Shown: one piece after another, positions 7,423 through 24,262 of the stretch
Layout of the letters: the number at the start of each line of letters is the position of its first letter
Position numbering within the stretch: position 1 is the first letter of the stretch
DNA from: Aromatoleum buckelii
GTDB taxonomy: Bacteria; Pseudomonadota; Gammaproteobacteria; Burkholderiales; Rhodocyclaceae
DNA: 64,000 bases
Direction of reading: 5' to 3'
Assembly (NCBI RefSeq): GCF_012910785.2
Contig: NZ_WTVH02000010.1
Location: 806,001 to 870,000 of the forward strand
Program-made: the position numbers and the translations under genes
The notes under the pieces: model-generated
The model's database searches: none
Told to the model about the DNA's origin: nothing
Seen by the model: only the letters and a program-made list of their open reading frames with translations

Positions 7423-7510
7423 GGAAGCGTGGCAGAGTGGTCGATTGCACCGGTCTTGAAAACCGGCAACGGGCAACCGTTCGTGAGTTCGAATCTCACC
7501 GCTTCCGCCA
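7423..7510 (+). tRNA. tRNA-Ser (anticodon UGA)
   Basis: Acceptor strand GGAAGCG (7423-7429) pairs with CGCTTCC (7500-7506); discriminator G, encoded CCA at 7508-7510. Anticodon stem CCGGT/ACCGG holds the loop CTTGAAA, so the anticodon is TGA. The long variable arm and the T-loop TTCGAATC are typical of serine tRNAs. Confidence 0.97.
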
Positions 7511-7550: not shown

Positions 7551-7748
7551 TCACCCCGCACCCCACGCAGCAAAGCCGAAACGAGATTGAGGGCAAGTCG
7601 CCCAGCCTTAGTGGGTCATGCCGTCGTGATTAGCTGAGTCACGACTGCGGCATCGCGCCGACCGGCTGACACTCCCGCGCCACCCCTGTTCGGTGGCGGA
7701 ATCAGATTTTCCCTGAACGCTTGCATTCCCGATTGACCGCGAGTAGAG

Positions 7749-7766
7749 TGAGTGTTCATTCAGTCG
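7749..7766. promoter_or_regulatory. TetR-type operator, site A (reductase operon)
   Basis: TGAGTGT-TCAT-TCAGTCG, one of four copies in the island of the pattern TGAnTGA-N4-TCAnTCA. It is the least perfect of the four in its outer bases. It abuts the FNR box, so a repressor bound here could interfere with FNR-type activation. The likely ligand-binding regulator is the TetR protein encoded at 23522-24262; that link is inference. Confidence 0.6.
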
Positions 7767-7767
7767 T

Positions 7768-7781
7768 TTGATTGACATCAA
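7768..7781. promoter_or_regulatory. FNR/CRP-family binding site, perfect FNR consensus
   Basis: TTGAT-TGAC-ATCAA matches the FNR consensus TTGAT-N4-ATCAA exactly, inside a longer inverted repeat GTTTGAT/ATCAAAC (7766-7783). It lies about 100 bases before the reductase start codon and about 30 bases before an AT-rich -10-like element. Anaerobic benzoyl-CoA genes in Azoarcus are known to be activated by an FNR-like protein (AcpR). Confidence 0.75.
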
Positions 7782-7879
7782 ACAAGTGAAGACCCGGGCA
7801 GAGGGGTTTATATCGCTCGATAGGTTTCTGAGATGGCCGGATCCGCCGCGCAGCGGAACATTCTTAAGGAGGCAGGTTC

Positions 7880-9019
7880 ATGAACGACGGATTGTTTGAC
7901 CAGTTCAAGGAGTGGTACGAGAAGCGTCACGACTACGCGCGGGCTTGGAAGGCGCGCACGGGGGGGCAGGTGGTGGCGACGATGTGTACCTATTCGCCCG
8001 AGGAATTGCTGATCGCTGCCGGCATGCTGCCGGTGCGCGTGCTCGGCGCCCATGAGCCGCAGAACGTGACCGAGCCGCACATCTTCGGCATGTTCTGCCC
8101 GTTCTGTCGCGATTCGCTCGCCCAAGGCCTGCTCGGCCGCTACGACTACGCCGAAGGCGTGACGCTGACGCAGTCGTGCATCCAGTACCGCCAGACCTAC
8201 AGTTCGTGGCGCCAGAATGTCCCGACGGTGAAGTGGGACTACTACGTCGCGATGCCGAACGACGTGCAGTCGCCACATTCGCGCAAGGCGCATATCGCCG
8301 AAGTGCAGCGTTTCCGCGTGTTCCTGCAGACGCTGACCGGCAAGGAAATCACCGACGACATGCTGCGCGAGTCGCTGGCCGTCGTCGACGAGAACCGTCG
8401 CCTGCTGCGCGAGCTCTTCGACTACCGCAAGGAAACGAACCCGCAGGTGACCGGCGTCGAAGCGCTGTATGCGTCGATCACTGCCCAGTTCATCGACAAG
8501 CGCGAGCACAACGAGCAGCTGAAGAAAGTGCTGGCGGCACTGCCGAAGCGCAATCTCGATCGTCCGCAGGGCGCGCGCTTCATGACGATCGGCTCAGAAA
8601 ACGACGACGTCGCGTTCATGGCGATGGTCGAGTCGGTCGGTGCGACGATCGTCATCGACGACCAGTGCTCGGGCACTCGTTACTTCTGGAACGCCTCGAA
8701 GCCCGGCGACGACGTCATCCGCGCGATCGCCGAGCGCTACTGCGACCGCCCGGCGTGTCCGACGAAGGATTACCCGGTCCACACGCGCTACGACCACGTG
8801 CTGAACCTGGCGAAGGAATACAACGTCCAGGCCGCGATTTTCCTGCAGCAGAAGTTCTGCGACCCCCACGAGGGCGACTACCCGGACCTGAAGCGTCACC
8901 TCGAAGCCAACGGCATCCCGACGCTGTTCCTCGAATTCGACATCACGAACCCGATCGGCCCGTTCCGCATCCGCATCGAAGCGATGCTCGAGACGCTGAG
9001 CGAAGAAGAGCTGTTCTGA
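7880..9019 (+). CDS. Class I benzoyl-CoA reductase-type subunit C (BcrC/BzdN-like)
   Basis: Member of the 2-hydroxyacyl-CoA dehydratase/benzoyl-CoA reductase family, 379 residues, close to the usual C subunit length. With subunit B it should form the substrate-binding, iron-sulfur-bearing half of an ATP-dependent dearomatising reductase. Cysteines that may bind the cluster are C36 ([10 protein letters not shown]), C73 and C76 (MFCPFCRDS) and C100; a late [14 protein letters not shown] stretch is typical of the family. It is followed 19 bases later by the B subunit gene. The wording looks closer to the Azoarcus (bzd) type than to the Thauera (bcr) type, but the true substrate (benzoyl-CoA or a substituted analogue) cannot be read from the sequence. 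No ferredoxin gene lies next to it. Confidence 0.85.
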
Positions 9020-9038
9020 GCCCTCAAGGAGACCAACC

Positions 9039-10343
9039 ATGACGAACCTGTACCCGACCGAACCGCTCAAGCTGTGGGGCAAGGCCAAGCAGCTGCGCGA
9101 GCAGTACTACCAGAACTTCGCGCGCGCGAAGGACAACGGCGGCATCCGCTGGTCGGCGGCCGGCTGGTCGTTCGACGCGATCCCGACTTCGCTCGGCGAC
9201 GACGTCTATCCGCTGACCGGCGAGCCGTATTCGGCTGGCGTGTCGCTCGACCGCAAATTCACGCAGCGCTGCCTCGATGCGGCCGAATCGTATGGCTTCG
9301 CGCGCGACATGTGCTCGTACATGCGCATCTACTGGGGCAGCATGCACCTGGACGAGTACTTCTACGGCGGCAAGTGGCCGACCTCGGACTTCATCTTCCA
9401 GACGCAGATCTGCTGCTCGCACGCGAAGTGGTATCAGCACGTCTCGCGCACGAAGAAAATCCCGGACTTCTACGTCGACGTGTCGGTCGGCGCGTACAAG
9501 GACCTGACGCCGGACCGCCTCGACTACGTGACGAGCCAGCTGCACGACTCGATCGAGTTCGTCGAGAAAGCCACGGGTCGCAAGTGCGACGACGAGCTGC
9601 TGATCCGCGCGATCAAGAACGAGATGCGCTCGACCGCGCGCTGGGCGCAGATCTGCGAACTGCAGAAAGCCGTGCCGGCGCCGCTCGATGAAAAGACGAT
9701 GTACTCGCTGTACGTGCTGGCGATCCTGCACAAGTCCTCGCAGTGGTGCGCGGACTTCTACGACGAGCTGTACGAGGAAGTGAAGGACCGCGTCGCGCGC
9801 GGCATCGCCGCAGTGCCCAACGAGCGCTGCCGTCTGATGTCGGACACGCAGCCGCCGTGGCCTTTCCTCAAGATCTTCCGCTATCTGGAGAGCTACGGCG
9901 CGGTGTCGATCGGCTCGCTCTACACCTTCGGCCTCGAAGGCACGTGGGAGACCAAGGCCGACGGTAGCTGGGGCGCGCGCACGCTGCCGTGGGAAAAGGG
10001 GGTCGAGATGAACGACCGCGACACCGCGCTGCGTCTCTATGCCGACTGGAACCTGTCGAAGCCGCTGTGGCAGCAGTTCTTCGATCCGTCGGTGAAGTCC
10101 GAGATGATGCTCAACATCGCGCGCGACTGGAACGTCGACGGCTGCATGATGCACTTGAACCGCGGCTGCGAAGGTCTGTCCGTCGGCATCATGGAGAACC
10201 GCCAGGCGATGGCGAAGGCGGGCATCCCGATCATGACTTATGAAGGGAACATGGGCGACGAGCGCGAATTCGACGAAGTCCGCACCCAGGCCCGCGTCGA
10301 TGCGTTCATGGAGCAGCTCGGCCTGCGCCGCCTCGCCGCCTGA
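9039..10343 (+). CDS. Class I benzoyl-CoA reductase-type subunit B (BcrB/BzdO-like)
   Basis: Partner of the preceding subunit, 434 residues, normal for the B subunit. Candidate cluster ligands are C92 ([11 protein letters not shown]) and C125-C126 (QICCSHAKW); a C-terminal [12 protein letters not shown] motif is characteristic of the family. Expected role is two-electron reduction of an aryl-CoA to a dienoyl-CoA, using electrons delivered by ATPase subunits A and D. Those partner subunits are not intact here (see 10472-11012), so the pair would need ATPase subunits encoded elsewhere. A good ribosome-binding site (AAGGAG) precedes the ATG. Confidence 0.87.
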
Positions 10344-10377
10344 TTTTTTCGCGCCGCCTGCGCGCCGTTCCGCCCTC

Positions 10378-10416
10378 GACGGCACCCGCCCTACCTTGCG
10401 TACCGCGGGTGCCGTC
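10378..10416 (+). terminator. Strong intercistronic hairpin between subunit B gene and ATPase remnant
   Basis: Perfect 12-bp stem GACGGCACCCGC (10378-10389) and GCGGGTGCCGTC (10405-10416), 15-base loop, no T-run after it. It could stabilise the upstream mRNA 3' end or attenuate read-through; which of the two is not decidable from sequence. Confidence 0.6.
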
Positions 10417-10471
10417 TCGGCGCGCCCAGTTCACAGGCATATCAGGATTGAATTCGACTGAGGACACGAGG

Positions 10472-11012
10472 ATGATTACCGCAGGAATCGACATGGGCTC
10501 GCGCAGCGTCACATGGGCGGCCAGGTCTGCAAGGCGATCCACTGCGACGAGAAAGGCAAGGTGACGAACTTCCTGATGAACGACAAGTGCGCGGCCGGTA
10601 CCGGGCGCGGCATGGAAGTCATCTCCGACCTGATGCAGATCCCGATCGCCGAACTGGGCCCGCGCTCGTTCGACGTCGATGTCGAGCCGGAAGCGGTGTC
10701 GTCGATCTGCGTCGTGTTCGCCAAGTCCGAAGCGCTGGGTTCTTGAAAGCCGGCTACACCAAGAACAAGGTGATCGCGGCCTACTGCCAGGCGATGGCCG
10801 AGCGCGTCGTGAGCTTGCTCGAGCGCATCGGCGTCGAGGAAGGCTTCTTCATCACCGGCGGCATCGCGAAGAACCCGGGTGTCGTGAAGCGCATCGAGCG
10901 CATCCTCGGCATCAAGCAGGTCGAGACCAAGATCGACAGCCAGATCGCCGGCGCGCTGGGCGCAGCGCTCTTTGGCTACACGCTGATGCAGAAGCAGGCG
11001 AAAGCGGCCTGA
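10472..11012 (+). pseudogene. Remnant of a benzoyl-CoA reductase ATPase subunit (BcrA/BcrD, BadF family)
   Basis: Broken gene of the ASKHA-type ATPase that drives electrons into the reductase. It opens with MITAGIDMGSRSV, the normal phosphate-1 start of the family, then jumps at 10511 into another frame with GGQVCKAI, so about 90-100 residues are missing and the frame is lost. The middle (10513-10746) keeps both cluster cysteines, in DKCAAGTGR and SSICVVFAKSE, but stops at a TGA at 10744. The rest, LKAGYTKNKVIAAYCQAMAERV through the adenosine motif FFITGGIAKNPGV to the end, continues in a third frame to 11012. The motif ACATGGGC occurs on both sides of the deletion (10491-10498, 10511-10518), which suggests a short-repeat deletion. 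Only one ATPase subunit is represented; a second one is absent. Confidence 0.85.
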
Positions 11013-11025
11013 AGTCGGGGCTGAA

Positions 11026-11053
11026 GCAGCGCCGGCATCCCTGCTGGCGCTGC
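11026..11053 (+). terminator. Hairpin between ATPase remnant and GNAT gene
   Basis: 12-bp stem with one mismatch, GCAGCGCCGGCA (11026-11037) and TGCTGGCGCTGC (11042-11053), loop TCCC, followed only by ATTTAT. Terminator or mRNA-stabilising hairpin. Confidence 0.5.
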
Positions 11054-11074
11054 ATTTATCGAGGAGAAGGGGAA

Positions 11075-11527
11075 ATGGCTGAAAAGAACCGTGTAATGCG
11101 CGTACTGAAGAAGGATGATCTCGGCGCGGTCGTCGCAATCGACGAAATCGGTGCCAAGCGCTCCCGTCACGATTACTACCAACGCAAGTTCGAGACGATC
11201 CTCAATTCCGCTCACAACATCAACTCGTCGATCGTCTGTGAAGTCGATGGCAGGATCGTGGGCTTCGTCATGGGGGACGTCTATTTCGGCGAGTTCGGAA
11301 TCCCCGAAACGTCGGCGACGATCGACACCATCGGCGTCCATCCGGAGTTCCAGAACCACGGCATCGCGAGTGAAATGCTCGACCAGTTCATGATGAACAT
11401 GAAGGTGGCGGGCGTGAAGAAAGTCTACACGCTGGTGAACTGGGACGACTTCGCGCTCGAGAAATTCTTCTCGCGGCAGAAGTTCACGCCATCCAAGCTG
11501 GTGAATCTGGAATATCAGCTGCCCTGA
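11075..11527 (+). CDS. GNAT-family N-acetyltransferase
   Basis: 150-residue protein with the GNAT acetyl-CoA signature IGVHPEFQNHGIASEML (Q93-A98 is the pyrophosphate-binding loop) and a C-terminal beta strand KKVYTLVNWDDFALEKFFSRQKF. A purine-rich site GAGGAGAAGGGG precedes the start. It stands in the reductase operon, 62 bases after the ATPase remnant. Acetyltransferases occur in other anaerobic aromatic clusters (for example badL of Rhodopseudomonas), where protein acetylation of acyl-CoA ligases is a known control. A similar role here is only inference; the acceptor is unknown. Confidence 0.82.
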   Translation: MAEKNRVMRVLKKDDLGAVVAIDEIGAKRSRHDYYQRKFETILNSAHNINSSIVCEVDGRIVGFVMGDVYFGEFGIPETSATIDTIGVHPEFQNHGIASEMLDQFMMNMKVAGVKKVYTLVNWDDFALEKFFSRQKFTPSKLVNLEYQLP

Positions 11528-11909
11528 CGGGAGAGCCGGCGCGGTGAGACCGGCAAGGTCTGCCCGCCGGCAGCGACATCTTGTCGCGCGACCACCTGCA
11601 GTCACCCGAAGCGCGCCGCGCTCCACACTCGCCGTGTTGAGCCGGGCCCTGGACAATCCCCAGGTCCGCATTGACCCTGCCTTCGCCCTCATCTCCTCCG
11701 TAAGAAACGAGCCTCATCCCCCCCATCCAGGGACCGGAAGAATTGTCCTTTCAACGTCGAATATGGCTTGACGTGTCGAGATGAATGAGTGACAATTCAT
11801 TCATTGATTTGGGAGCAGCGCAGCCTTGACGGGGTACGCGGCCGGCGCAACAGGAAGCGGAGTCCCGTGCAGAGGGCGGCGGGTTTCACTCAAGGAAGGA
11901 GATGATGAA
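11528..11909 (+). other. Intergenic region before the first SDR gene, with operator B
   Basis: 382 bases. Holds the palindrome at 11786-11803 and, close to the gene, a ribosome-binding site AAGGAAGGAGATG. The first 200 bases are GC-rich and show no gene. Confidence 0.55.
11786..11803. promoter_or_regulatory. TetR-type operator, site B (SDR/acyl-CoA dehydrogenase operon)
   Basis: TGAGTGA-CAAT-TCATTCA, an almost perfect match to the shared pattern TGAnTGA-N4-TCAnTCA. An outer repeat ATGAATGA/TCATTCAT (11781-11788, 11797-11804) overlaps it in a second register. It lies about 110 bases before the SDR start codon at 11910. Confidence 0.7.
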
Positions 11910-12692
11910 ATGAGTACGGTGCGCGAACTTTCCGGCAAGCACGCAGTGGTCACCGGAGGCGGCCGCGGCATCGGTGCCGCGATCGCCCAGCGCCTGGCCG
12001 AACAGGGCGCGTGCGTCACGCTGATGGGACGCACGCGCGAACCGCTCGAAGAGCGGGCGGAGGCGTTGCGCGCACTCACGGATATGCACTGCGAAGCTGT
12101 CGACGTCGCCGACCCGGCCTCCGTCGCGGCCGCTTTCGACGCTGCCGCACGTCGATTCGGGGCGGTCTCGATTCTGGTCAACAATGCCGGTCAGGCATCG
12201 AGCGCGCCGTTCGTCAAGACCGATCTCGCGCTGTGGCAGCAGATGCTCGACGTCAACCTCACCGGCACCTACCTCGGGACGAAGGCAGTGCTATCCGGAA
12301 TGCTCGCCGCCGGCTGGGGCCGCATCGTCAACGTCGCGAGCACCGCCGGGCAGAAAGGCTATCCCTACGTTTCGGCCTACTGCGCTGCCAAGCACGGCGT
12401 CATCGGCATGACGCGCGCGCTGGCGCTCGAACTGGCCCAGAAGAACATCACGGTGAATGCGGTTTGTCCCGGTTACACCGACACCGACATCGTGCGCGAG
12501 GCGATCACGAATATCCGCGCCAAGACGGGCCGCAGCGAAGCCGAAGCGCAAGTCGAGCTGGCTAAGCACAACCCCCAGGGCCGTCTGGTCCGTCCCGATG
12601 AAGTCGCGAACGCCGTGCTGTGGCTTTGCCTGCCGGGAGCGGAAGCGATCACCGGCCAGGCGATTTCGGTGTCCGGTGGAGAAGTCATGTGA
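11910..12692 (+). CDS. Short-chain dehydrogenase/reductase (3-hydroxyacyl-CoA dehydrogenase-like)
   Basis: Classical SDR of 260 residues: cofactor motif TGGGRGIG (15-22), NNAG at 91-94, catalytic S144, Y157 and K161 (YPYVSAYCAAK). The start at 11910 follows a good ribosome-binding site; an ATG 84 bases upstream in frame gives only a low-quality extension. The C-terminal PGYTDTDIV and ITGQAISVSGGEVM are typical of NAD(P)-dependent beta-oxidation-type alcohol dehydrogenases. In this island it is expected to oxidise a hydroxyacyl-CoA made after hydration of the reduced ring. First gene of a probable operon with the acyl-CoA dehydrogenase and TRAP genes. Confidence 0.85.
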   Translation: MSTVRELSGKHAVVTGGGRGIGAAIAQRLAEQGACVTLMGRTREPLEERAEALRALTDMHCEAVDVADPASVAAAFDAAARRFGAVSILVNNAGQASSAPFVKTDLALWQQMLDVNLTGTYLGTKAVLSGMLAAGWGRIVNVASTAGQKGYPYVSAYCAAKHGVIGMTRALALELAQKNITVNAVCPGYTDTDIVREAITNIRAKTGRSEAEAQVELAKHNPQGRLVRPDEVANAVLWLCLPGAEAITGQAISVSGGEVM

Positions 12693-12833
12693 GGTCGCGC
12701 GGGCCCCGGGCGGTGCAGGAATCGTCGCCCGGCGCCGGCTGAACACTACGGCCGGGGGCAGCGCCGACCGACGCAATGAACCAGAGGAGGAGGTGACATC
12801 GGCTCACCTTCCCGTATGCAGGAGGAGAAGTAG

Positions 12834-14012
12834 ATGAGTGATCAGACCTATCTCGAGTGGCCGTTCTTCGACGAGCGCCACCGTCAACTGCAGACCGAAC
12901 TCGAGGCCTGGGCGTCGGCCAACGTGACGGAACATCACGGCAGCGATCTGGACACCGCGTGCCGCGAGCTGGTGGCAAAGCTGGGCGCTGCCGGCTGGCT
13001 GCGCTACGTCGTCGGTGGCACCGCGTACGGGGGGTGCCACGACGTCATCGACACCCGCGCCGTGTGCCTGCTGCGCGAGACGCTGGGGCGTCACTCCGGA
13101 CTCGCCGACTTCGCGTTCGGCATGCAGGGGCTCGGTTCCGGCGCGATCACGCTGCATGGTACGGACGCGCAGAAACGCGACTACCTGCCGCGCGTCGCAG
13201 CCGGCCAGGCGATCGCCGCCTTCGCGCTGTCGGAACCCGGCTCCGGCTCGGACGTCGCCGCGATGGCGTGCAGCGCGCACCAGGACGGCGACGAGTACGT
13301 GATCGACGGCGAGAAGACGTGGATCTCGAACGGCGGCATTGCCGATTTTTACGTCGTCTTCGCCCGCACCGGCGAAGCGCCCGGTTCCCGCGGGCTCTCC
13401 GCGTTCATCGTCGATGCCGACAGGGCGGGGCTCGAGATCGCCGAACGCATCGACGTCATCGCGCCGCATCCGCTCGCCCGCCTGCGCTTTCGCGAGTGCC
13501 GCGTGCCGAAGTCCTGCCTCCTCGGGCTGCCCGGTCAGGGCTTTAAGGTCGCGATGCAGACGCTGGACATCTTCCGCACGTCGGTTGCTGCCGCGGCGCT
13601 GGGTTTTGCGCGGCGCGCGCTCGACGAAGCGCTCAAGCGCGCGACGACGCGCGACATGTTCGGCCAGAAGCTCGCCGATTTCCAGATCACGCAAGCGAAG
13701 CTCGCGCAAATGGCCACCGGAGTCGACACCTCGGCGCTGCTGACTTACCGCGCCGCGTGGCTGCGCGACCAGGGGCGGACCATCACCGGCGCCGCCGCGA
13801 TGGCGAAGATGACTTCCACCGAGACCGCGCAACAGGTCATCGATGCCGCGGTGCAGATGTGGGGCGGCTGCGGAGTCGTCAGCGATCATCCCGTCGAGCG
13901 CCTGTACCGCGAGATCCGCTCGCTGCGCATCTACGAAGGCGCGACCGAAGTCCAGCAACTCATCATCGCCCGGCAGACGCTTTCGGCGTACGCACGCGAG
14001 CAGGAGCACTGA
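12834..14012 (+). CDS. Acyl-CoA dehydrogenase
   Basis: FAD enzyme that introduces a double bond alpha,beta to a CoA thioester, 392 residues. Visible: flavin-binding [26 protein letters not shown], the C-terminal helical domain with [21 protein letters not shown], and the catalytic base E368 in [13 protein letters not shown]. Electrons would pass to ETF. The ATG follows GGAGGAGAAG. Located 141 bases after the SDR gene and before the TRAP transporter. Its presence fits a substrate with a saturated ring or side chain next to the carboxyl group, in addition to ring reduction. Confidence 0.9.
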
Positions 14013-14170
14013 CGCTGGCCGTGCGGTGGCGAGCGATCGGGAATCGTTTCGCCCTCGCGTCCGGCGTCCGCCCCAGCCACGACTTTGCGGCGTGGGCCGG
14101 GATCAATCGGGAAGATACCCGTTCCTGTGTGACTGGCTGTTGATGCAGTCCAGATAAGAGGAGACAGAAC

Positions 14171-14815
14171 ATGCATGCAAGCATTGCGAGCTACGATGCG
14201 ACGGCTACGCCGCGTGGCGTCGAAGGATTTCCGGTTCGGCCGAAAGTGCCCGCCGACGGAGAGGGAATCCAGCTCGAGCCCGGTTCCGTCGAACACGTCG
14301 CCCATCCCGAAGCGCTGCCGCACGGGCCGTGGGGGATGCGGCTGCACGCGGCTACGCGCGCCTTCGCGCTCGCGGGCGGCGTCCTGTTCATCGTGCTGAT
14401 CGCGATGTCGCTGGTTTCGATCGTCGGGCGCAAGCTGTTTTCAATGCCCGTTCCCGGTGATTTCGAGCTCCTGCAGATGGGTGCGGCCGTCGCCGCGGCG
14501 ACGTTCTTCGCGTACTGCCAGATGAGTGACGGACACGTGAAGGTCGATTTCTTCACGACCTGGATGCCGGAGCGCCTGCGCGCCTTCCTCGATGGCCTCG
14601 CTGCGCTCTTGATGTGTGCCGTCGCGCTGCTGATTTCGTGGCGCACCGCGATCGGCGCCGTGTCGTCGTTCGAGTCGGGTGAGGCATCGCTGATGCTCGG
14701 ATGGCCGGGATGGATCGCGATCGCGCTGATCGTGCCCAGCTTCATCCTGTTCGCGCTCACCGGCCTGTACATTGCTGGACGGCGCTTCCGTCATGCACTG
14801 GGAGAAGCCAAATGA
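14171..14815 (+). CDS. dctQ: TRAP transporter small permease (DctQ family)
   Basis: Small integral membrane subunit of a tripartite ATP-independent periplasmic transporter, 214 residues with four predicted membrane spans between about residues 65 and 205 and a long soluble N-terminus of about 55 residues, longer than usual. Family wording ELLQMGAAVAAATFFAYCQMSDGHVKVDFF and LMLGWPGW is clear. Its stop overlaps the DctM start by four bases (ATGA), showing translational coupling. Confidence 0.88.
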   Translation: MHASIASYDATATPRGVEGFPVRPKVPADGEGIQLEPGSVEHVAHPEALPHGPWGMRLHAATRAFALAGGVLFIVLIAMSLVSIVGRKLFSMPVPGDFELLQMGAAVAAATFFAYCQMSDGHVKVDFFTTWMPERLRAFLDGLAALLMCAVALLISWRTAIGAVSSFESGEASLMLGWPGWIAIALIVPSFILFALTGLYIAGRRFRHALGEAK

Positions 14816-16143
14816 GCGGCATCGAAATCGGCATCACGATGTTCGGCCTCCTGCTCGTGATGCTCGTGCTGCGGGTGCATATCGGCATCACGATGTTCAC
14901 GGTGGGGGCCGGCGGCTTCCTGACGATGACCGGCGGTGACTGGTCGCCTTTCCTCAACATGCTGAAGAACCTCGCGTATGCGCGGCTCTCGAACTACGAC
15001 CTCGCCGTCATCCCGATGTTCTTGCTGATGGGGCAGTTCGCGACGCATGGAGGGTTGTCGCGCGCGCTGTTCCGCTGCGTGAGTTCGCTGGTCGGTCACT
15101 GGCGCGGCGGCGTCGCGATGGCTTCGACGGGGGCCTGTGCGGGCTTCGGCGCGATCTGCGGCTCGTCGCTGGCGACGGCCGCGACGATGGGTCAGGTCGC
15201 GCTGCCGGAACTCAAGCGCTACAAGTATTCCGGCTCGCTGTCGACGGGCGCGTTGGCCGCAGGGGGCACGCTCGGCATCCTGATCCCGCCGTCGGTGCCG
15301 CTCGTGATCTACGCCGTGCTGACCCAGGAATCGATCGGCAAGCTGTTCATGGCGGCGGTGCTGCCGGGCCTCATCGCGATGCTCGGCTACATGCTCGTGA
15401 TCCGCATCATCGTCACGCTCAAGCCGGACGCCGGCCCTGCCGGACCGCACGTGCCGCTCGCCGAGAAGCTGCGCTCGGTGGTGAGCGTGATGCCGGTCGC
15501 GTTGATCTTCCTGGTCGTGATCGTCGGCATCTACGGCGGCTGGGCGAACCCGACCGAAGCGGCGTCGCTCGGCGCGGCCGCATGCGGCATCCTCGCGGTC
15601 GTCTCGGGCGGCATGCGCCTCGAAGGCGTCAAGGACAGCATCCTCGGTGCAGCCGAAGCGACAGCGATGATTTTTCTCGTGCTGCTGGGTGCGGACATGC
15701 TCAACACCGGCCTCGCACTCACGCAGATGCCGGCCGAGCTCGCCAACTGGGTCAAGGACAGCGGCCTGTCACCGCTGTTGGTGCTGACCGCGATCCTGCT
15801 GATCTACGTCTTCCTCGGCTGCGTCATGGACGCGCTGGCGATGATCCTGCTGACGATCCCGATTTTCTATCCGGTGGTGATGGGCCTGGAGTTCTGGAAT
15901 CTCAGCCAGGCGGACAAATCGATCTGGTTCGGCATCCTCGTGCTGATGGTCGTCGAGATCGGTCTGGTGCATCCGCCAGTCGGGATGAACATCTACATCA
16001 TCAACCGTCTCGCCAAGGACGTCCCGCTCAGCGACACGTTCAAGGGGGTGATGCCGTTCCTCGCCTCGGACCTTGCGCGCATCGTGTTGCTGATGTTCTT
16101 CCCGGTCATCACGCTGTACCTGGTACGGACCTTCGGCGGCTAG
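14812..16143 (+). CDS. dctM: TRAP transporter large permease (DctM family)
   Basis: Large membrane subunit that carries the Na+-coupled transport step, 443 residues with about 12 membrane spans. Typical stretches are GACAGFGAICGSSLATAATM, GGTLGILIPPSVPLVIYAVLT and FLGCVMDALAMILLTIPIFYP. The start at 14812 overlaps the dctQ stop. An in-frame ATG further upstream is within dctQ and is rejected. The C-terminus VHPPVGMNIYIIN is diagnostic of the family. Confidence 0.93.
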   Translation: MSGIEIGITMFGLLLVMLVLRVHIGITMFTVGAGGFLTMTGGDWSPFLNMLKNLAYARLSNYDLAVIPMFLLMGQFATHGGLSRALFRCVSSLVGHWRGGVAMASTGACAGFGAICGSSLATAATMGQVALPELKRYKYSGSLSTGALAAGGTLGILIPPSVPLVIYAVLTQESIGKLFMAAVLPGLIAMLGYMLVIRIIVTLKPDAGPAGPHVPLAEKLRSVVSVMPVALIFLVVIVGIYGGWANPTEAASLGAAACGILAVVSGGMRLEGVKDSILGAAEATAMIFLVLLGADMLNTGLALTQMPAELANWVKDSGLSPLLVLTAILLIYVFLGCVMDALAMILLTIPIFYPVVMGLEFWNLSQADKSIWFGILVLMVVEIGLVHPPVGMNIYIINRLAKDVPLSDTFKGVMPFLASDLARIVLLMFFPVITLYLVRTFGG

Positions 16144-16183
16144 CCCGGCCCGGTTCATTCGATCTGTTCAAAGGAAAAAACCG

Positions 16184-17218
16184 ATGAAAACCCGCAACCT
16201 GCTCACCCCGCTTTGCGCTTCCGTGCTGATGACGTTCGGCGCAGCCCAGGTCCAGGCCGCAGACGATGTCGTCACGCTGCGCGTGCATCACTTCCTGCCG
16301 CCGTCGTCGAACACGCAGCTGAAGTTCCTCGAACCGTGGTGCGCGAAGATCAGCGCGGAATCCGCGGGCCGGCTGAAATGCCAGATCTACCCGGCGATGC
16401 AGATGGGCGGCACGCCGCCGCAGCTCTTCGACCAGGCCAAGGACGGCATCGCCGACATCGTCTGGGCATTGCCCGGCTACCAGGCGGGACGCTTCCTCGT
16501 GACCGAAGCGTTCGAGCTGCCGTTCATGGGCATCTCCGGCGAGAAGTCGAGCCGGGCGTTGTGGACCTACGCGACGAAAAACGCGACCGACGAATACAAG
16601 GGCGTCCGGCCGCTCGTTTTCCACGTGATCTCGGGCATGGCGCTGCATACCTCGAAGAAGCAGGTCAAGACGATGGACGACCTGCGCGGCCTGAAAGTGC
16701 GGGCACCGACGCGCTTGGCGACGCGGATGCTCACCGCGCTGGGCGCGACGCCCGTGCCGATGCCGGTGCCGCTGGTCACCGAGAGCCTGGCGAAGGGGGT
16801 CATCGACGGAGCGATGATCCCGTGGGAAGTGGTGCCGGCGATGAAGGTGCAGGAAGTCGTGAAATACCACACCGAGACCGACCCGAGCATGCCGCTGCTG
16901 TCGACCTCGGCTTTCGTGCTGGCGATGAACCCGGCCAAATACGACAGCCTGCCCCCGGAGCTGAAGAAGGTCATCGACGCGAACAGCGGCGCCGAAGTGT
17001 CGGCATGGGCCGGCAAGGTCTGGGACGATGCGACGCTCGCGGGGCGGCAGTCCGGTGTCGAGCGCAAGAACACGTTCTACATGGTGCCTGCGGACGAAGT
17101 GAAGAAGTGGCAGAAAGCCTCCGAGTCGGTGACTGCCGACTGGGTCAAGGAGGTGACTGCGAAGGGGTATGACGGACAGAAACTGCTCGCCGAAGCCCAG
17201 GCGCTGCTGAGTAACTGA
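16184..17218 (+). CDS. dctP: TRAP transporter substrate-binding protein (DctP family)
   Basis: Periplasmic solute receptor, 344 residues, with a signal peptide ending about AQVQA/AD (residue 25). Family motifs include VTLRVHHFLPPSSNTQ near the N-terminus and the conserved LKVRAPTRLATRMLTALGATPVPMP region with the carboxylate-binding arginine. Together with DctQ and DctM it forms a full importer for an organic acid, here probably the aromatic or alicyclic acid degraded by the island. The DctP fold does not tell the ligand. A terminator follows. Confidence 0.9.
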   Translation: MKTRNLLTPLCASVLMTFGAAQVQAADDVVTLRVHHFLPPSSNTQLKFLEPWCAKISAESAGRLKCQIYPAMQMGGTPPQLFDQAKDGIADIVWALPGYQAGRFLVTEAFELPFMGISGEKSSRALWTYATKNATDEYKGVRPLVFHVISGMALHTSKKQVKTMDDLRGLKVRAPTRLATRMLTALGATPVPMPVPLVTESLAKGVIDGAMIPWEVVPAMKVQEVVKYHTETDPSMPLLSTSAFVLAMNPAKYDSLPPELKKVIDANSGAEVSAWAGKVWDDATLAGRQSGVERKNTFYMVPADEVKKWQKASESVTADWVKEVTAKGYDGQKLLAEAQALLSN

Positions 17219-17237
17219 CCCGAAGGTCGTCTCGCTT

Positions 17238-17264
17238 CCCGGTCCTTGCGCCGGGGATTTTTTT
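17238..17264 (+). terminator. Intrinsic terminator after dctP
   Basis: Stem CCCGG (17238-17242) and CCGGG (17251-17255) followed by a seven-T run (17258-17264). Confidence 0.75.
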
Positions 17265-17283
17265 CTGTCGTTGTGGAGCAGAC

Positions 17284-18855
17284 ATGAGTTTTGACAATAC
17301 CGCGCGATACGGAACGATGAACGCGGCCGACGAAATCATCGGTCGCCCCCTTTCCCTGGGTCTCGGCGAGCAGGCCGCGATCGTCAGCGGCGACCGCTCG
17401 GTGAGCTATCGCGAACTGAATGCGATGGTCAATCGCACCGGTAACGCGCTGAAGGAGCACGGCCTCGTCAAGGGAGAGCGAGTACTTTTCCTCATGGACG
17501 ACTCCCCCGAAATGGTCGCGGCCTACCTTGGCACGCTGCGCATCGGCGCCGTCTCGGTCGCGCTCAACGTCCGCCTCGCGCCGCGCGACGTACGCTACGT
17601 CATCGAGGACAGCGAGTGCCGGGTGCTGATGATCGATGCCGAGTTTGTGCACCTGTACGAGGAAATCGCCGGTGAGCTCGCATCCCGGCCGTTGGTGGTC
17701 GTCCGCGGCGCCGCGCCTCCCGCGGGTTGCGTGTCGCTCGAGAGCTTCGTCGCGGGCTGCTCCGATGCGCTCGAATCGGAGCCGGCGGCACCGAACGACG
17801 TCGCATTCTGGGTCTACTCGTCCGGCACCACCGGCCGGCCGAAGGCGGTGATGCATACGCACGAATGCGTGCTGATCGCCGACCAGATGGAGCGCGAGTA
17901 TTTCGGCGTCGTGCCGGGAGACCGCATCTTCACCACATCCAAGATGTTTTTCGGCTGGGCGCTCGGCCATTCGCTGATGGGCGGGCTGCGTTGCGGGGCG
18001 ACCGTGATCATCGCGCCGGGCTGGCCGGACCCGGCACTTATGGCCGGCATCATCGAGCGCCACAAGCCGACGCTTTTTTTCAGCACACCGGTGATGTATC
18101 GCAACCTGCTGCGCGAAGGCGTCGCCGAAACGCCCGCCTGCCGCGAGATCCGCTATTTCCTGTCGGCCGGCGAGAAGCTCCCCGAAACGCTTTACCAGCG
18201 CTGGCTCGAAGTCTGCGGCAAACCGATCATCGACGGCATCGGCGCTTCCGAGACGATCTTCCTGTTTCTCGTCAACGACTCGCTCGAGCAGCGGCCGGGT
18301 TCCTGCGGCAAGAAGGTGCCGTGGGCCGAAGTCCGCCTCGTCGATGAAGCCGGCGAAGAGATCGTCACCCCTGACGTGCCCGGGCTGATCGCGATCAGGA
18401 CGCCGTCACAGTTCGCCGGTTACTGGAAGCAGCCCGAGCTGACCGCGAAGGCGCTGCGGGACGGCTGGTACTACCCGGGCGACATGTTCAGTTTCGACCG
18501 CGACGGGTACTGGTACCACAACGGGCGCGCCGACGACATGCTGAAAATCTCCGGGCAATGGGTGAGCCCGTCGGAGATCGAATCCTGTGCAATGACCGCG
18601 CCGGGTATCTCCGAGGCCGCGGTCGTCGGCATCCAGCAGGACGACGGGCTGATGCGTCTCGCGCTGATCGCCGTGGCGAAGGATCCGACGGCCAACGAGG
18701 CGCGGCTGTCCGAGGAAGTGCTCAAGACGCTGAAAGCGAACCTGTCGATCTACAAGTGCCCGCGCACGATCCGCTTCGTCGAGGAGCTGCCGCGCACCGC
18801 CACCGGCAAGATCCAGAAATACCGTTTGCGGGAAATGATGAAAACGGCCGCATGA
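17284..18855 (+). CDS. Acid-CoA ligase, benzoate-CoA-ligase-like
   Basis: ATP- and CoA-dependent ligase of the ANL superfamily, 523 residues, the size typical of benzoate-type aryl-CoA ligases. Motifs: P-loop-like YSSGTTGRPK (about 178-187) with MHTH after it, the substrate pocket TSKMFFGWALGHSLMGGLRCGATVII, hinge DGWYYPGDMF, and the C-terminal catalytic lysine in GKIQKYRLRE. The FFxYGLG-like sequence of benzoate-CoA ligases is here FFGWALG, consistent with a somewhat different acyl pocket. It should activate the imported acid as the first step of the pathway. The gene begins 19 bases after the dctP terminator. Confidence 0.88.
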   Translation: MSFDNTARYGTMNAADEIIGRPLSLGLGEQAAIVSGDRSVSYRELNAMVNRTGNALKEHGLVKGERVLFLMDDSPEMVAAYLGTLRIGAVSVALNVRLAPRDVRYVIEDSECRVLMIDAEFVHLYEEIAGELASRPLVVVRGAAPPAGCVSLESFVAGCSDALESEPAAPNDVAFWVYSSGTTGRPKAVMHTHECVLIADQMEREYFGVVPGDRIFTTSKMFFGWALGHSLMGGLRCGATVIIAPGWPDPALMAGIIERHKPTLFFSTPVMYRNLLREGVAETPACREIRYFLSAGEKLPETLYQRWLEVCGKPIIDGIGASETIFLFLVNDSLEQRPGSCGKKVPWAEVRLVDEAGEEIVTPDVPGLIAIRTPSQFAGYWKQPELTAKALRDGWYYPGDMFSFDRDGYWYHNGRADDMLKISGQWVSPSEIESCAMTAPGISEAAVVGIQQDDGLMRLALIAVAKDPTANEARLSEEVLKTLKANLSIYKCPRTIRFVEELPRTATGKIQKYRLREMMKTAA

Positions 18856-18870
18856 CGTGAACGACGTCGG

Positions 18871-18905
18871 GGGTTGGCCGGGCATGGCTCCAGCCCGGCC
18901 AACCC
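18871..18905. terminator. Hairpin between convergent CoA ligase and MFS genes
   Basis: Perfect 13-bp stem GGGTTGGCCGGGC (18871-18883) and GCCCGGCCAACCC (18893-18905), 9-base loop. No T-run, but the position between converging genes supports a terminator role for both. Confidence 0.65.
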
Positions 18906-18975
18906 GACGCGGCTTTGCAGCAGCAAGCACATAAACGTCGGTCAAAAGACCGCCGTTGTTTCGTCCCGGCGTTCT

Positions 18976-20220
18976 TCAGCAGCCCGAGCTGCCTCCTTCT
19001 GCGACCGCATGTTCCGCGGGAGCGCTGCGCGTATCCCGCTTCGGGCGTTCGATCCCCAGCAGCAACAGGCCGGCGGCAACTCCGGTCACGGCGGCCCCCG
19101 CCATGAGACCGGTCGCGGCGCGCCAGTCTCCGCCGCCCGCGGTAACGGCTGCCGCGATCGCCGGCGGCCCGACGAACTGGCCGAGGTTCGACCCCTGCAC
19201 GAGCAGTCCATTGACCGCCCCGATGTGCCGCGGCGACGGCGCATGGGCGGTCAGGCCCGAGAACGCGGCAGCCGGGAGAATGCCGCCGACAGACGTAAAC
19301 AGCAGGCACAGGCCGTAGCGCAGCGCGTCCGGCAGGCGCTCGTCGAAAATGCCGAACGCGCACGCCAGCATGAACAGCGAGGTCCCGCAGATGAGGGTGC
19401 CGCGGCGGATATTGCGGTGGACGAGCCAGCCGCCGAATATGTTGCCCGGCACGTTTGCCGCGACCACCCCTGCGGTCAGCGCGCCGGCGAGCGACACCGA
19501 AAGGCCGCGGTGCTCGACGAGGAAGCTCGGCAGCCACACCATCAGCGTGAACCACTGCAGCGTATACGTGAAAAACGCGGCGGTCAGGCACCACGCGCCC
19601 GGACTGCGCAGGGTGTCGAGGATCACGCCGGAAGCGGGGCCCCTGGCGACGTTCGCCGGGGCGACGAAACGCTGGCGCATGCGGTAGAGCAGCGTCGCGC
19701 AGGCGAGCGTGGCGCCGGCGAGAACGAGCCACAGTCCCCGCCAGCCGAGCGACGGGAGCAGGAACGGCGCCGTCAGCATCACAATACTGCTGCCGAACGG
19801 CAGGTAGATGCTCCACAGGCCGAGCGCGAGGCGGTAGTCCCGTGGCGCCGTGCTGCGCGTGATCAGCGAGGGGAGGGTGACGACGACGGCGATGAAGCCG
19901 CTGCCTTCGAGCACGCGGGACACCAGCAGCAGCGTGTAACTCTGCGCGAAAGCGCCGAGGAGCGCGCCCAACACCATCATCGTGAGCCCGAGCAGCGCCA
20001 GGCGAAGCTCGCCGACGCGGGCGCTTGCGCCGCCGAAAAACAGCGCGCAACAGCCGCCCAACGTCGCGAACGTCGACATCACCCAGCCCGCCTCGACCAT
20101 CGTCAGCCCGAGCTGGTCGCGCACCGCCGGCAGCGCGGGCGGGACTTTGCCGATGGCGGCTGCCGCCACCATGCCTGAAAAGATCGCGATGCCTACCGCG
20201 GCCCATGACGTCTTCTGCAT
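18976..20220 (-). CDS. Major facilitator superfamily transporter
   Basis: 414-residue membrane protein with 12 predicted spans. Family signs include the long hydrophobic segments from residue 1, the GGASARVGELR loop 2-3 stretch (a relaxed form of the MFS GxxxDRxGRR motif) and the central cytoplasmic loop near residue 200. Probably exports or imports an acid or an intermediate of the island pathway; direction and substrate are unknown. It is divergent from the second SDR gene, and operator C lies only about 25 bases before its start codon, so it is very likely under the same repressor as the catabolic genes. Confidence 0.85.
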   Translation of the reverse strand: MQKTSWAAVGIAIFSGMVAAAAIGKVPPALPAVRDQLGLTMVEAGWVMSTFATLGGCCALFFGGASARVGELRLALLGLTMMVLGALLGAFAQSYTLLLVSRVLEGSGFIAVVVTLPSLITRSTAPRDYRLALGLWSIYLPFGSSIVMLTAPFLLPSLGWRGLWLVLAGATLACATLLYRMRQRFVAPANVARGPASGVILDTLRSPGAWCLTAAFFTYTLQWFTLMVWLPSFLVEHRGLSVSLAGALTAGVVAANVPGNIFGGWLVHRNIRRGTLICGTSLFMLACAFGIFDERLPDALRYGLCLLFTSVGGILPAAAFSGLTAHAPSPRHIGAVNGLLVQGSNLGQFVGPPAIAAAVTAGGGDWRAATGLMAGAAVTGVAAGLLLLGIERPKRDTRSAPAEHAVAEGGSSGC

Positions 20221-20245
20221 TGCTTTCCCCCGAAGTGTGGATGAA

Positions 20246-20263
20246 TGATTGAGCGCTCAGTCA
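20246..20263. promoter_or_regulatory. TetR-type operator, site C (MFS gene)
   Basis: TGATTGA-GCGC-TCAGTCA, matching TGAnTGA-N4-TCAnTCA at every fixed base; the inner ten bases TGAGCGCTCA are a perfect palindrome. It is about 25 bases upstream of the minus-strand MFS start codon. Confidence 0.72.
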
Positions 20264-20528
20264 CAACAGTCAACTGCGTGCGATGCGAAAACCGTTGCCC
20301 GGCTTCTCGATCCGACGCCTTCCCAAGGTGGCGAACGTCGATCGACAACCGGTGTCCGCGAGCGTCGTAGATAAAGGGTCGATCTCTTTCGTGTTACATC
20401 ATGCAACGGGATATTTCTTGTTCCCGCGACGATGACGCTCGCCTGATCGGGGCTGTGCCAACGCGTGCCAGGGTGGCTTTAACGCGTAGACGAGAGGATT
20501 CCTGCATCAGGGGGTTGACTTGATAGAC

Positions 20529-20546
20529 TGACTGAACAATCATTCA
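20529..20546. promoter_or_regulatory. TetR-type operator, site D (second SDR/crotonase operon)
   Basis: TGACTGA-ACAA-TCATTCA, again matching every fixed base of the shared pattern. It begins 8 bases after a -35-like TTGACT. Confidence 0.72.
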
Positions 20547-20671: not shown

Positions 20672-21418
20672 ATGCGGCTTGACGGAAAAACTGCAGTAGT
20701 CACCGGCGGAGCATCGGGGATCGGCCTGGCGACCGCGGAAACGCTGGCGCGCGCCGGGGCTTATGTGCTGATCGGCGACATCAACGAGCAGAAAGGCGCC
20801 GCCGTCGCCGGCGCGTTGTGCGAACAGCATCTGGGCGTGGATTTCATCCGCCTCGACGTCACCGATCTCGATTCGATCGCCGCGTTCAAGGACGAGGCCT
20901 ACCGCCGCCGCCCCCAGATCGACATCGTCGCGAACGTCGCGGGGTGGGGCAAGATCCAGCCGTTCATGGAGAACACGCCGGACTTCTGGCGCAAGGTCAT
21001 CGACCTCAACCTCCTCGGGCCGATCGCGGTTTCGCACGCGTTCCTGCCGCAGATGATCGAGCGCGGCGCGGGCAAGATCGTCACCGTCGCGAGCGATGCG
21101 GGGCGCGTCGGCAGCCTCGGGGAAACCGTGTATTCCGGAGCGAAGGGCGGTGCGATCGCATTCACCAAGTCGCTCGCCCGCGAAGTCGCGCGTTACAACA
21201 TCAACGTCAATTGTGTCTGCCCGGGACCGACCGACACGCCGCTGTTGCAGGCGGTGCCGGAGAAGCACCGCGAGGCCTTCGTCAAGGCGACGCCGATGCG
21301 GCGCCTTGCCAAGCCGTCCGAACTTGCCGATGCAGTGCTGTTCTTCGCCAGCGACCGGGCGAGTTTCATCACCGGCCAGGTCATCAGCGTGAGCGGCGGT
21401 CTGACCCTCGCGGGCTGA
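20672..21418 (+). CDS. Short-chain dehydrogenase/reductase
   Basis: Classical SDR of 248 residues: TGGASGIG at 11-18, catalytic S141, Y154 and K158 ([10 protein letters not shown]), C-terminal [11 protein letters not shown]. The start at 20672 is chosen for its strong ribosome-binding site; an upstream in-frame ATG lacks one. It leads an operon with two crotonase-type genes and TetR. With the other SDR of the island it could oxidise successive hydroxyacyl-CoA intermediates. Position 90-91 reads VAGWG instead of NNAG (ANVAGWG), a variant of the usual NNAG motif. Confidence 0.85.
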
Positions 21419-21485: not shown

Positions 21486-22304
21486 ATGTACAAGCTGAAA
21501 GCTGCCGAATGGCGCCCCGAGCATTTCAAGCTGGAAGTCGCCGACCGCGTTGCGACGATCACCCTGAACCGTCCCGAGCGCAAGAATCCGCTGACCTTCG
21601 AGAGCTACGCCGAGCTGCGCGACACCTTCCACAAGCTGCAGTATGTCGATGACGTCCGCAGCGTGGTCATCACCGGCGCCGGCGGCAACTTCTGCTCGGG
21701 CGGCGACGTGCACGACATCATCGGGCCGCTGACGAAGATGGACATGAACGGCCTGCTGACTTTCACGCGCATGACCGGCAACCTCGTCAAGGAAATGCGC
21801 AACTGCCCGCAGCCGATTATCTCGGCGGTCGACGGCATCTGCGCCGGCGCCGGCGCGATCGTGTCGATGGCGTCCGACCTGCGCTACGCAACGCCCGAAG
21901 CGAAGACCGCGTTCCTGTTCGTGCGCGTGGGCCTCGCCGGCTGCGACATGGGTGCGTGCAGCATCCTGCCGCGCATCATCGGCCAGGGGCGCGCTTCAGA
22001 GCTCCTTTACACCGGCCGCTCGATGAGCGCCGAGGAAGGCCGCGCCTGGGGCTACTTCAACGACATCGTGCCCGCCGAGAAGGTGCTCGAACGCGCGCAG
22101 GAGATGGCGCTGTCGCTCGCCAACGGCCCGGCGTTTGCGCATTCGATGACGAAGAAGTGCCTGCACCAGGAATGGAACCAGACGATCGAGCAGGCGCTCG
22201 AGACCGAGGCCGAAGCCCAGGCGATCTGCATGCAGACGAAGGACTTCACGCGCGCCTACAACGCGTTCGTGAACAAGCAGGTGCCGAAGTTCGAAGGCAA
22301 CTGA
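21486..22304 (+). CDS. Crotonase-fold protein (enoyl-CoA hydratase/isomerase family)
   Basis: 272-residue crotonase family member. The first oxyanion-hole loop is [10 protein letters not shown] (66-75) and the second [11 protein letters not shown] (114-124). At the place where hydratases carry the first catalytic Glu (GxPE), this protein reads [22 protein letters not shown], so that Glu is missing. It may therefore be a hydratase acting with other residues on a dienoyl-CoA, an isomerase or a C-C lyase or hydrolase. It is 67 bases after the SDR gene and has a good ribosome-binding site. The exact reaction is unassigned. Confidence 0.82.
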
Positions 22305-22623: not shown

Positions 22624-23385
22624 ATGATTTCGCTAACTATTGAAGCTTCGGTCGCGACGGTGACGCTGTGCCGCTCCCCGGTCAATGCGATCAACGAGGA
22701 ATGGATCGAGCAGCTCGACGGCATCCTGGCCGAGATCGAACGCATGCCGCGCGTCAACGTGCTGTGGATTCGCAGCGGCGAGCGGGTGTTCTGCGCCGGC
22801 GCGGACCTGGAGCTGATCCGCTCGCTGTTCGACAGCGAGACCGGGCGCAGGCAGATGATCGCGATGACGCGCCGAATGCAGGAAGTGTATGCGCGCCTCG
22901 AACGTCTCCCGCAGGTGTCGGTCGTCGAGATCGGCGGTGCGGCGATGGGCGGCGGCTTCGAACTCGCGCTGGCGTGCGATCTGCGCGTCGTCGCCGACTC
23001 CGCCCGGATCGGCCTGCCCGAAGCGCGGCTGGGCCTCCTGCCGGCGGCCGGCGGCACGCAGCGCATGACGCGCATCTGCGGCGAGGCGGTCGCCCGGCGG
23101 CTGATCCTCGGTGCCGAAGTCATCGGCGGCGCAGAAGCGGTGGCGCTCGGCTGTGCCCACTGGGTCGCGCCTGCTGCCGAGCTGGAATCGGTCACGCGCG
23201 CCGTGGTCGAACGCATTGCGGCGCTGCCGGGTATGGCGCTTGCCGAATGCAAGCGCTGCATCGACGTTGCGGTCGCCGCCGAGGAAAATGGATTCGAAGT
23301 GGAACTCGCCGGCAGCGCGGCGCTGCTCGCCGACGCCGAGACGCAGCGGCGCGTGCAGCAATTCCTCGACAAGCAGCGGCAGTAA
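22624..23385 (+). CDS. Enoyl-CoA hydratase/isomerase family protein
   Basis: 253-residue crotonase family member. Oxyanion-hole loops are ERVFCAGADLELI (53-65) and GGAAMGGGFELALACDLR (104-121), and the catalytic Glu is present as E133 in GLPEARLGLLPAAGGTQRM. Expected to hydrate or isomerise an enoyl- or dienoyl-CoA in the island pathway. It is separated from the preceding crotonase gene by 319 bases and is 136 bases before the TetR gene. Confidence 0.87.
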   Translation: MISLTIEASVATVTLCRSPVNAINEEWIEQLDGILAEIERMPRVNVLWIRSGERVFCAGADLELIRSLFDSETGRRQMIAMTRRMQEVYARLERLPQVSVVEIGGAAMGGGFELALACDLRVVADSARIGLPEARLGLLPAAGGTQRMTRICGEAVARRLILGAEVIGGAEAVALGCAHWVAPAAELESVTRAVVERIAALPGMALAECKRCIDVAVAAEENGFEVELAGSAALLADAETQRRVQQFLDKQRQ

Positions 23386-23521: not shown

Positions 23522-24262
23522 ATGAGTTCAGCAGAGAGCGTCAAGAGCGTGGTTTCCGACCCGAAACTGGTCGAGGAGCGCCGTCACCAGATCATCCGCG
23601 CGGCGACGAAGCTTTTTTCCGAAGAAGGCTACTACACGACGACCATTCTGCAGATCGCCCGCGAGGCCAAGGTGAGCACCGGGCTGATCTACCAGTACTT
23701 CGGCGACAAGGACGACATCCTGTTCCTGACGCTGAAGCAGGTGCTCGACACTTACGAGAACGAGATTCCGCGCCAGATCGAAGGCCTGACGCACCCGGTC
23801 GAGCGACTGTGCCGGGCGATCTGGGCGTATTGCGCGATCGTCGATGCGCAGCGCGACGCGACGGTGCTCGCCTATCGCTCGACGAAGTCGTTGCGTGCCG
23901 ATCGGCGCGGTCTGATCATGGACGGCGAAACCCGTACCAATCGCCTGATCGAGAAGGCGATTCGCGCGTGCACCACGGGCGGTTTCATGCGCCCGATCAA
24001 TGAGCATCTCCTGTCTTACCAGTGCGTCACGTTCGCGCATGCGTGGGCGCTGAAATACTGGGCGTTCCGCGATCGCTACACGCTCGCCGAATACGTCGAT
24101 GAAGGCCTCCAGCTGATGGTCGAACCTTTCCTCACGACCAAGGGCAAGACGGTGCTGACGCGAATCCGCCAGAGCGCAGCGGAGGCGGTGAGCGAAGCTC
24201 CCGCCTCCGCTGCGGCAACTGCCACCGCCGCCTCGGCCGGCGTCAAATCGTCCAACGACTGA
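23522..24262 (+). CDS. TetR/AcrR-family transcriptional regulator, probable regulator of the island
   Basis: 246 residues. The N-terminal DNA-binding domain (about 20-66) reads HQIIRAATKLFSEEGYYTTTILQIAREAKVSTGLIYQYFGDKDDI, a textbook TetR helix-turn-helix. The C-terminal ligand domain contains LTHPVERLCRAIWAYCAIVDAQRDATVLAYRSTKSL, and a low-complexity Ala/Ser tail follows. The four palindromes in the island resemble the TGAATGA-type sites of acyl-CoA-responsive TetR repressors such as Bacillus FadR, so a CoA thioester is the likely inducer; this is inference. No copy of the palindrome precedes its own gene, so autoregulation is not evident. Confidence 0.88.
   Translation: MSSAESVKSVVSDPKLVEERRHQIIRAATKLFSEEGYYTTTILQIAREAKVSTGLIYQYFGDKDDILFLTLKQVLDTYENEIPRQIEGLTHPVERLCRAIWAYCAIVDAQRDATVLAYRSTKSLRADRRGLIMDGETRTNRLIEKAIRACTTGGFMRPINEHLLSYQCVTFAHAWALKYWAFRDRYTLAEYVDEGLQLMVEPFLTTKGKTVLTRIRQSAAEAVSEAPASAAATATAASAGVKSSND

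Follow-up and report, generated by a model that had tools for sequence, protein, structure and literature searches.

In Aromatoleum sp. CIB, the anaerobic 3-hydroxybenzoate (hbd) pathway is reportedly governed by HbdR; a 2024 article in Microbiological Research is said to present it as a TetR-type dimer that represses three hbd promoters. HbdR reportedly recognizes an operator of the form ATGAATGA-N4-TCATTCAT, present as palindromes at the hbdN, hbdE and hbdH promoters, with 3-hydroxybenzoyl-CoA and benzoyl-CoA (CoA, coenzyme A) as effectors and AcpR for oxygen control, and the described cluster is said to include the reductase activase genes hbdP and hbdQ. In the present study we examined a 64000-nucleotide stretch of Aromatoleum buckelii (contig NZ_WTVH02000010.1, positions 806001–870000, hereafter ‘the window’; coordinates are positions within it unless a contig is named), in which a first-pass annotation had noted four copies of a TetR-type palindrome, TGAnTGA-N4-TCAnTCA, and had assigned them to a TetR protein encoded at 23522–24262. 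These palindromes are, with little doubt, the operators of this HbdR orthologue at hbd promoters. The sites, the geometry of their promoters, the co-conservation of regulator and site and the identity of the pathway are all read from sequence, and for DNA binding and the inducer we lean by analogy on the reported work with strain CIB. The regulatory switch has reportedly already been described in that sister strain, and the present locus adds one probable extra target.

The window resembles the described regulon in that its tetR gene lies inside a cluster with HbdA, HbdN/O, short-chain dehydrogenases/reductases (SDRs), an acyl-CoA dehydrogenase, crotonases and a TRAP transporter, and in that its operators are of the TGAnTGA-N4-TCAnTCA type, exact before the two dehydrogenase genes SDR1 and SDR2 and with one mismatch before hbdN. 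It differs in lacking activase genes of its own, hbdP being lost and hbdQ broken, and in having a fourth operator-promoter on a gene for a major facilitator superfamily (MFS) transporter, a decayed site before dctQ and no site before the hydratase gene ECH1. In genome G002, whose TetR is 83% identical, 1-mismatch sites precede hbdN, SDR1 and SDR2, with the left half TGAACGA rather than TGAATGA, and the MFS gene of the window is absent from the corresponding position. MbdR of Azoarcus sp. CIB, a strain of the same group, is likewise a TetR repressor that controls the anaerobic breakdown of an aromatic compound, with several operators over promoters and induction by the first CoA thioester (PMC4424350). 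Unlike the palindromes studied here, the MbdR operator reads ATAC-N10-GTAT, and its pathway is a different one; the window was not scanned separately for the MbdR word. In the main text of a study that compares aromatic regulons across betaproteobacteria (PMC6449761), no word begins with TetR.

The pattern TGAnTGA-N4-TCAnTCA was scanned across the window, with 100 shuffles as the control, and across the strain's own genome (4161042 bases in 10 contigs), with the reversed pattern as the control. Exact matches in the window lie at 11786–11803, 20246–20263 and 20529–20546, so that three of the four sites fit the consensus as originally proposed; the first, before hbdN, carries two mismatches in the register given for it (TGAGTGT-TCAT-TCAGTCG, from 7749) and one in a better register at 7745–7762 (AGAGTGA-GTGT-TCATTCA). 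At up to two mismatches the window holds eight matches, compared with a mean of 1.21 (S.D. 1.13, maximum 4) in the shuffles, and because these eight come down to the four known places, each matched in two registers offset by 4 bp, the remark that no comparable site occurs elsewhere in the window holds at this threshold. The genes downstream were also placed correctly: the sites precede the bzdN/O-type reductase genes, the SDR and acyl-CoA dehydrogenase genes, the minus-strand MFS gene, and the SDR and crotonase genes followed by tetR. The genome-wide scan returned three exact matches, every one inside the hbd island, and none for the reversed control. At up to one mismatch the scan gave six places, namely the four hbd-island promoters together with C4:583001 and C5:548019, and the reversed control gave five. 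The hbdN site is weaker than the other three, its support coming from position and conservation: the identical 18 letters stand before hbdN in all four window-subclade loci that reach that point (the window counted), the other aligned genus loci all read TGAACGA-N4-TCAGTCA at the same place (5/5), and, of two loci outside the genus, hbdN is preceded by a 1-mismatch site in L069 and has none directly before it in L071. The sites are real and specific to the hbd cluster.

Regulator and palindrome also travel together. We searched 150 related genomes, including that of the strain itself and 16 further Aromatoleum genomes, with a threshold of E ≤1e-30 for the TetR protein. The TetR was found in 23 genomes and the exact palindrome in 25, with 18 genomes having both, five the TetR only, seven the palindrome only and 120 neither. 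The exact palindrome is therefore present in 18/23 genomes with the TetR compared with 7/127 without it (Fisher p 1.6e-13, a value that overstates the evidence because the genomes are related), and for 42 of the 53 exact sites the tetR gene is no more than 20 kb away, which supports the assignment of the four sites to the protein at 23522. From the 22 other matching genomes, 20 TetR loci were taken (G014 and G144 were left out), and in all 20 the palindrome is present with no more than one mismatch, being exact in 16; the short locus of G144 also contains an exact site. A separate scan, partly overlapping the 150 genomes, covered 75 loci. A relative of the TetR is present in 48 of these, although only weakly matched in L129 (35%) and L130 (64 matched residues), and the other 27 gave a helix-turn-helix match only. 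The exact palindrome was found in 38/48 loci of the first kind (790561 bases; reversed control 0) and in 0/27 of the unrelated-TetR loci (457061 bases). Among the ten TetR-relative loci that lack it, five have a 1-mismatch site, four span less than 1.5 kb upstream and one is the 35% relative. The pairing extends past Aromatoleum to metagenome-assembled genomes titled as other beta-, alpha- and gamma-proteobacteria.

The operators are embedded in promoter-like sequences. Ahead of hbdN, a putative promoter assigned by inspection (7721–7749, +) consists of TTGCAT (7721–7726), N17 and TAGAGT (7744–7749), and the TAGAGT overlaps the left end of operator 1 (7745–7766, +), itself two overlapping imperfect registers at 7745–7762 (one mismatch) and 7749–7766 (two mismatches). 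The arrangement TTG(C/A)(A/T)T-N17-TAGAGT recurs in 9/9 aligned hbdN upstream regions, the window counted. Operator-promoter 2, at SDR1 (11768–11803, +), comprises TTGACG (11768–11773) and the exact operator at 11786–11803, with an extra TGAA half-site from 11782. Operator-promoter 3, on the MFS gene (20245–20273, −), reads TTGACT (20273–20268), the exact operator (20263–20246) and AATCAT (20250–20245), and operator-promoter 4, at SDR2 (20515–20546, +), has TTGACT (20515–20520) and the exact operator at 20529–20546, with a partial extra half-site, AGAC, from 20525; the hexamers of both were assigned by inspection. At a 17-base spacer, the putative −10 hexamers, likewise picked by inspection, fall inside the operator, as GACAAT at SDR1 and AATCAT at SDR2 and MFS. 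A dimer bound at the operators would mask the −10 region, a geometry of simple repression.

When upstream regions are aligned across species, TTGAC followed by the palindrome is seen ahead of SDR2 and, for the majority of species, ahead of SDR1 as well; TTGAC was not found in the aligned stretch of L057 at SDR1, nor in those of L071 and L072 at SDR2. Over 21 loci, TTGAC stands within 30 bases upstream of 60/195 strand-sites with at most one mismatch, a total in which both strands of each palindrome are counted and about half are the wrong reading. Its offsets are −18 (22 cases), −14 (24) and −10 (8), with 11 occurrences at other offsets, and the main offsets form a 4-bp lattice following the TGAn repeat. 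A 22-bp operator with an extra TGAn half-site 4 bp upstream was rejected as a general rule: the half-site is absent from 9/9 CIB-like SDR1 sites (L058–L066), seven of which read AAAA, and in the window that position reads TGA at two of the four sites and AGA at the other two. Just 3′ of operator 1 lies an FNR-type box, TTGATTGACATCAA (7768–7781, +), the sole such box in the window, and TTGAT-N4-ATCAA is present in 8/9 aligned hbdN upstream regions; the consensus for boxes of this type is that quoted in a passage of PMC9765128. The idea that FNR acts from this box as a class II activator at hbdN was considered but not adopted, since the conserved promoter-like hexamers stand 5′ of the box and the stretch on its 3′ side is unconserved.

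The window and four relatives (G005, G007, G008 and G011) carry the MFS transporter gene (18976–20220, − in the window) in the interval from hbdA to SDR2. Orthologues of at least 92% identity are found in 5/17 genus genomes, always at this locus, and matches of just 36–40% identity occur in eight other genomes and at a second place in the strain's own genome. Read on the MFS strand, each of the five MFS-bearing genomes has TTGACT ten bases upstream of an exact palindrome, which is followed by the MFS ATG. This makes it probable that the MFS gene is a working target of the regulator, and the fourth, divergent operator-promoter that it carries in the five genomes of the window's subclade is likely to be new here. 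On a narrower version of the HbdR reading, which we find the less plausible but take seriously, the MFS palindrome would be the vestige of an earlier site behind hbdA, with the transporter standing outside the regulon. Ten genus loci (L057–L066) lack the MFS gene here, and six of them do have a weaker palindrome, with one or two mismatches, between hbdA and SDR2 (the remaining four have none there besides the SDR2 site), and the published regulon reportedly counts three promoters. However, none of these six weaker palindromes, which all lie beside a G+C-rich inverted repeat, has TTGAC, whereas the full arrangement of exact palindrome, TTGACT and ATG is found wherever the gene is present. In A. 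anaerobium (L056, genome G008) the interval between hbdA and the MFS gene contains approx. 2.8 kb of extra DNA, with a reading frame that by eye resembles a serine recombinase.

Several observations weigh against the assignment of the palindromes to HbdR. Operator 1, by its letters alone, is not significant against the genome background, the six places at up to one mismatch standing beside five in the reversed control, and these letters alone therefore prove nothing. Five of the 23 TetR-bearing genomes lack an exact site, although four of them (L058, L060, L063 and L065) carry 1-mismatch sites at hbd promoters; the other, G014 (TetR 48% identical; L025), shows no palindrome at up to one mismatch within the 3.6 kb examined, and neither do the loci of the paralogous TetRs L027 and L028 (45–46% identity) in 3.6–3.7 kb. 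Seven genomes hold a lone palindrome but not this TetR, which we read as background. Finally, the remnant of hbdP and hbdQ hints that the pathway may be impaired in this strain; the gene loss is a feature of the pathway and not of the regulator.

The lone palindromes would also suit the proposal that the sites are owned by another TetR-family regulator, FadR- or FadP-like and encoded elsewhere, and that the 23522 protein has another role, as would a half-site like that of Bacillus FadR, a likeness claimed by the first-pass annotation. We consider such an owner very improbable. In the strain's own genome every exact site is inside the island and a single TetR passes E 1e-30, the palindrome tracks the 23522-type TetR across genera, and none of the five distant sites examined (out of eleven) lies near hbd homologues. 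These distant palindromes were also rejected as extra regulon members, tblastn at 1e-8 with 16 window proteins giving no hit at any of the five. A chance likeness of AT-rich promoter words, with no regulon behind it, could appeal to the 1-mismatch class lying near the genome background and is scarcely credible in the face of the co-occurrence results, the window shuffles, the exact-site genome count and the conservation of the locus.

HbdR, as the preferred owner of the sites, is encoded by tetR (23522–24262, +) after the SDR2 and crotonase genes, and is perhaps co-transcribed from operator-promoter 4, which would amount to self-regulation. The protein contains a TetR_N helix-turn-helix (PF00440, 57.2 bits compared with a cut-off of 24), and its predicted structure (predicted local distance difference test score 85.4) is helical almost throughout, including the C-terminal domain. 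Columns invariant across 28 relatives include Ser52, Gly54, Leu55, Tyr57, Gln58 and Tyr59, a stretch that probably corresponds to the recognition helix region. A Foldseek search with the predicted fold placed AibR with isovaleryl-CoA at rank 1 and FadR of B. subtilis at rank 5 (E 2.0e-7); the nearest folds are thus CoA-ester-binding TetRs, which supports, indirectly, the sensing of a CoA thioester. AibR, an isovaleryl-CoA-responsive TetR, has been solved with its CoA ester and with operator DNA, but has approx. 19% identity with the window protein and serves a different pathway. FadR (YsiA) shares the TetR fold, the CoA-thioester logic and, by the statement of the first-pass annotation alone, a similar half-site; in contrast, its identity in the fold alignment is approx. 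19% and its pathway is that of fatty acids, whereas that of the window is aromatic. The predicted fold fits the comparison with FadR drawn in that annotation, but the protein is not FadR by the curated cut-off (equivalog NF053878, 60.1 compared with 200 bits), and the operator letters quoted for FadR were not found in the literature searched. Plasmid-borne relatives of the TetR amount to four records, with a top identity of 48%.

We infer the following mode of action. Without substrate, HbdR dimers would lie over the −10 regions of the promoters of hbdN, SDR1/acyl-CoA dehydrogenase, MFS and SDR2/crotonases/hbdR and exclude RNA polymerase. Once 3-hydroxybenzoate is imported and activated by HbdA, its CoA thioester would bind the C-terminal domain of HbdR, the ligand-bound protein would be released from the DNA and the regulon would open, with the FNR-type box at the hbdN promoter probably adding oxygen control.

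By its gene content the island is identified as the anaerobic hbd cluster, and named relatives of the TetR place the window in Aromatoleum. It begins with genes for the BzdN-type reductase subunit hbdN (7880–9019, +; TIGR03190, 865.9 bits, cut-off 453.8) and the BzdO-type subunit hbdO (9039–10343, +; TIGR03191, 988.4 bits, cut-off 448.6). SDR1 (11910–12692, +), the acyl-CoA dehydrogenase gene (12834–14012, +), the TRAP transporter genes dctQ, dctM and dctP (14171–17218, +) and the 3-hydroxybenzoate-CoA ligase gene hbdA (17284–18855, +; NF053567, 1062.3 bits, cut-off 1000, passed nowhere else in the genome) follow. Beyond the MFS gene lie SDR2 (20672–21418, +), whose best NCBIfam match is BadH but below cut-off, and genes for two enoyl-CoA hydratase family proteins, ECH1 (21486–22304, +; NF006107, 488.7 bits, cut-off 330) and ECH2 (22624–23385, +). 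Because the bzd-type reductase models cannot separate 3-hydroxybenzoyl-CoA from benzoyl-CoA, the assignment of 3-hydroxybenzoate as the substrate draws on HbdA and gene order. A gene for a GNAT-family acetyltransferase (Pfam; 11075–11527, +) stands before SDR1, as it does in 11/15 genus loci by tblastn, the window counted. A few hundred bases ahead of the cluster lies a tRNA-Ser(TGA) (7423–7510), which ARAGORN found in two (L053 and L055) of eight relatives' loci. Integration linked to this tRNA was considered and rejected: no second copy of its 3′ end (at least 18 bases) occurs in the window, so that no att pair is claimed.

The loss of the cluster's reductase-activase genes appears to be new here. 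hbdN and hbdO are intact, whereas hbdP is missing and hbdQ is a frameshifted remnant (10472–11013, +), approx. 1.2 kb being absent by comparison with the relative L053 and the leftover BzdQ-like sequence lying in two frames. Reductase genes elsewhere could supply the activase: contig C4 has BzdN (730641) and BzdQ (734011) above cut-off with a weaker BzdQ-family match between them (733122), which is perhaps BzdP, and a third, weaker set lies at C2:1798670–1801743. Operators have probably also been lost. The site before dctQ is exact in L057 (A. diolicum) and in L062 but decayed in the window (14130–14147, +), and no site with up to two mismatches lies ahead of ECH1 in the window. Since all ten loci L057–L066 have further sites, with up to two mismatches, before both dctQ and ECH1, the ancestral regulon is likely to have been richer in operators than that of the window. 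Tentatively, and with more doubt than confidence, we suggest that in the window's subclade the MFS gene was captured through a −35/operator module that evolved at the older weak palindrome behind hbdA, and that in this strain the activase-less reductase is powered by BzdP/BzdQ, which would make the hbd and benzoate pathways interdependent.

A reading of sequence alone, made without tools, rebuilt a regulon for which experimental work in a sister strain has reportedly been published. The wider pairing of TetR and palindrome makes the operator and ligand predictions testable in the other lineages that carry it, and the MFS operator and the loss of the activase genes are minor evolutionary changes that can be checked, in a pathway acting on lignin-type phenols.

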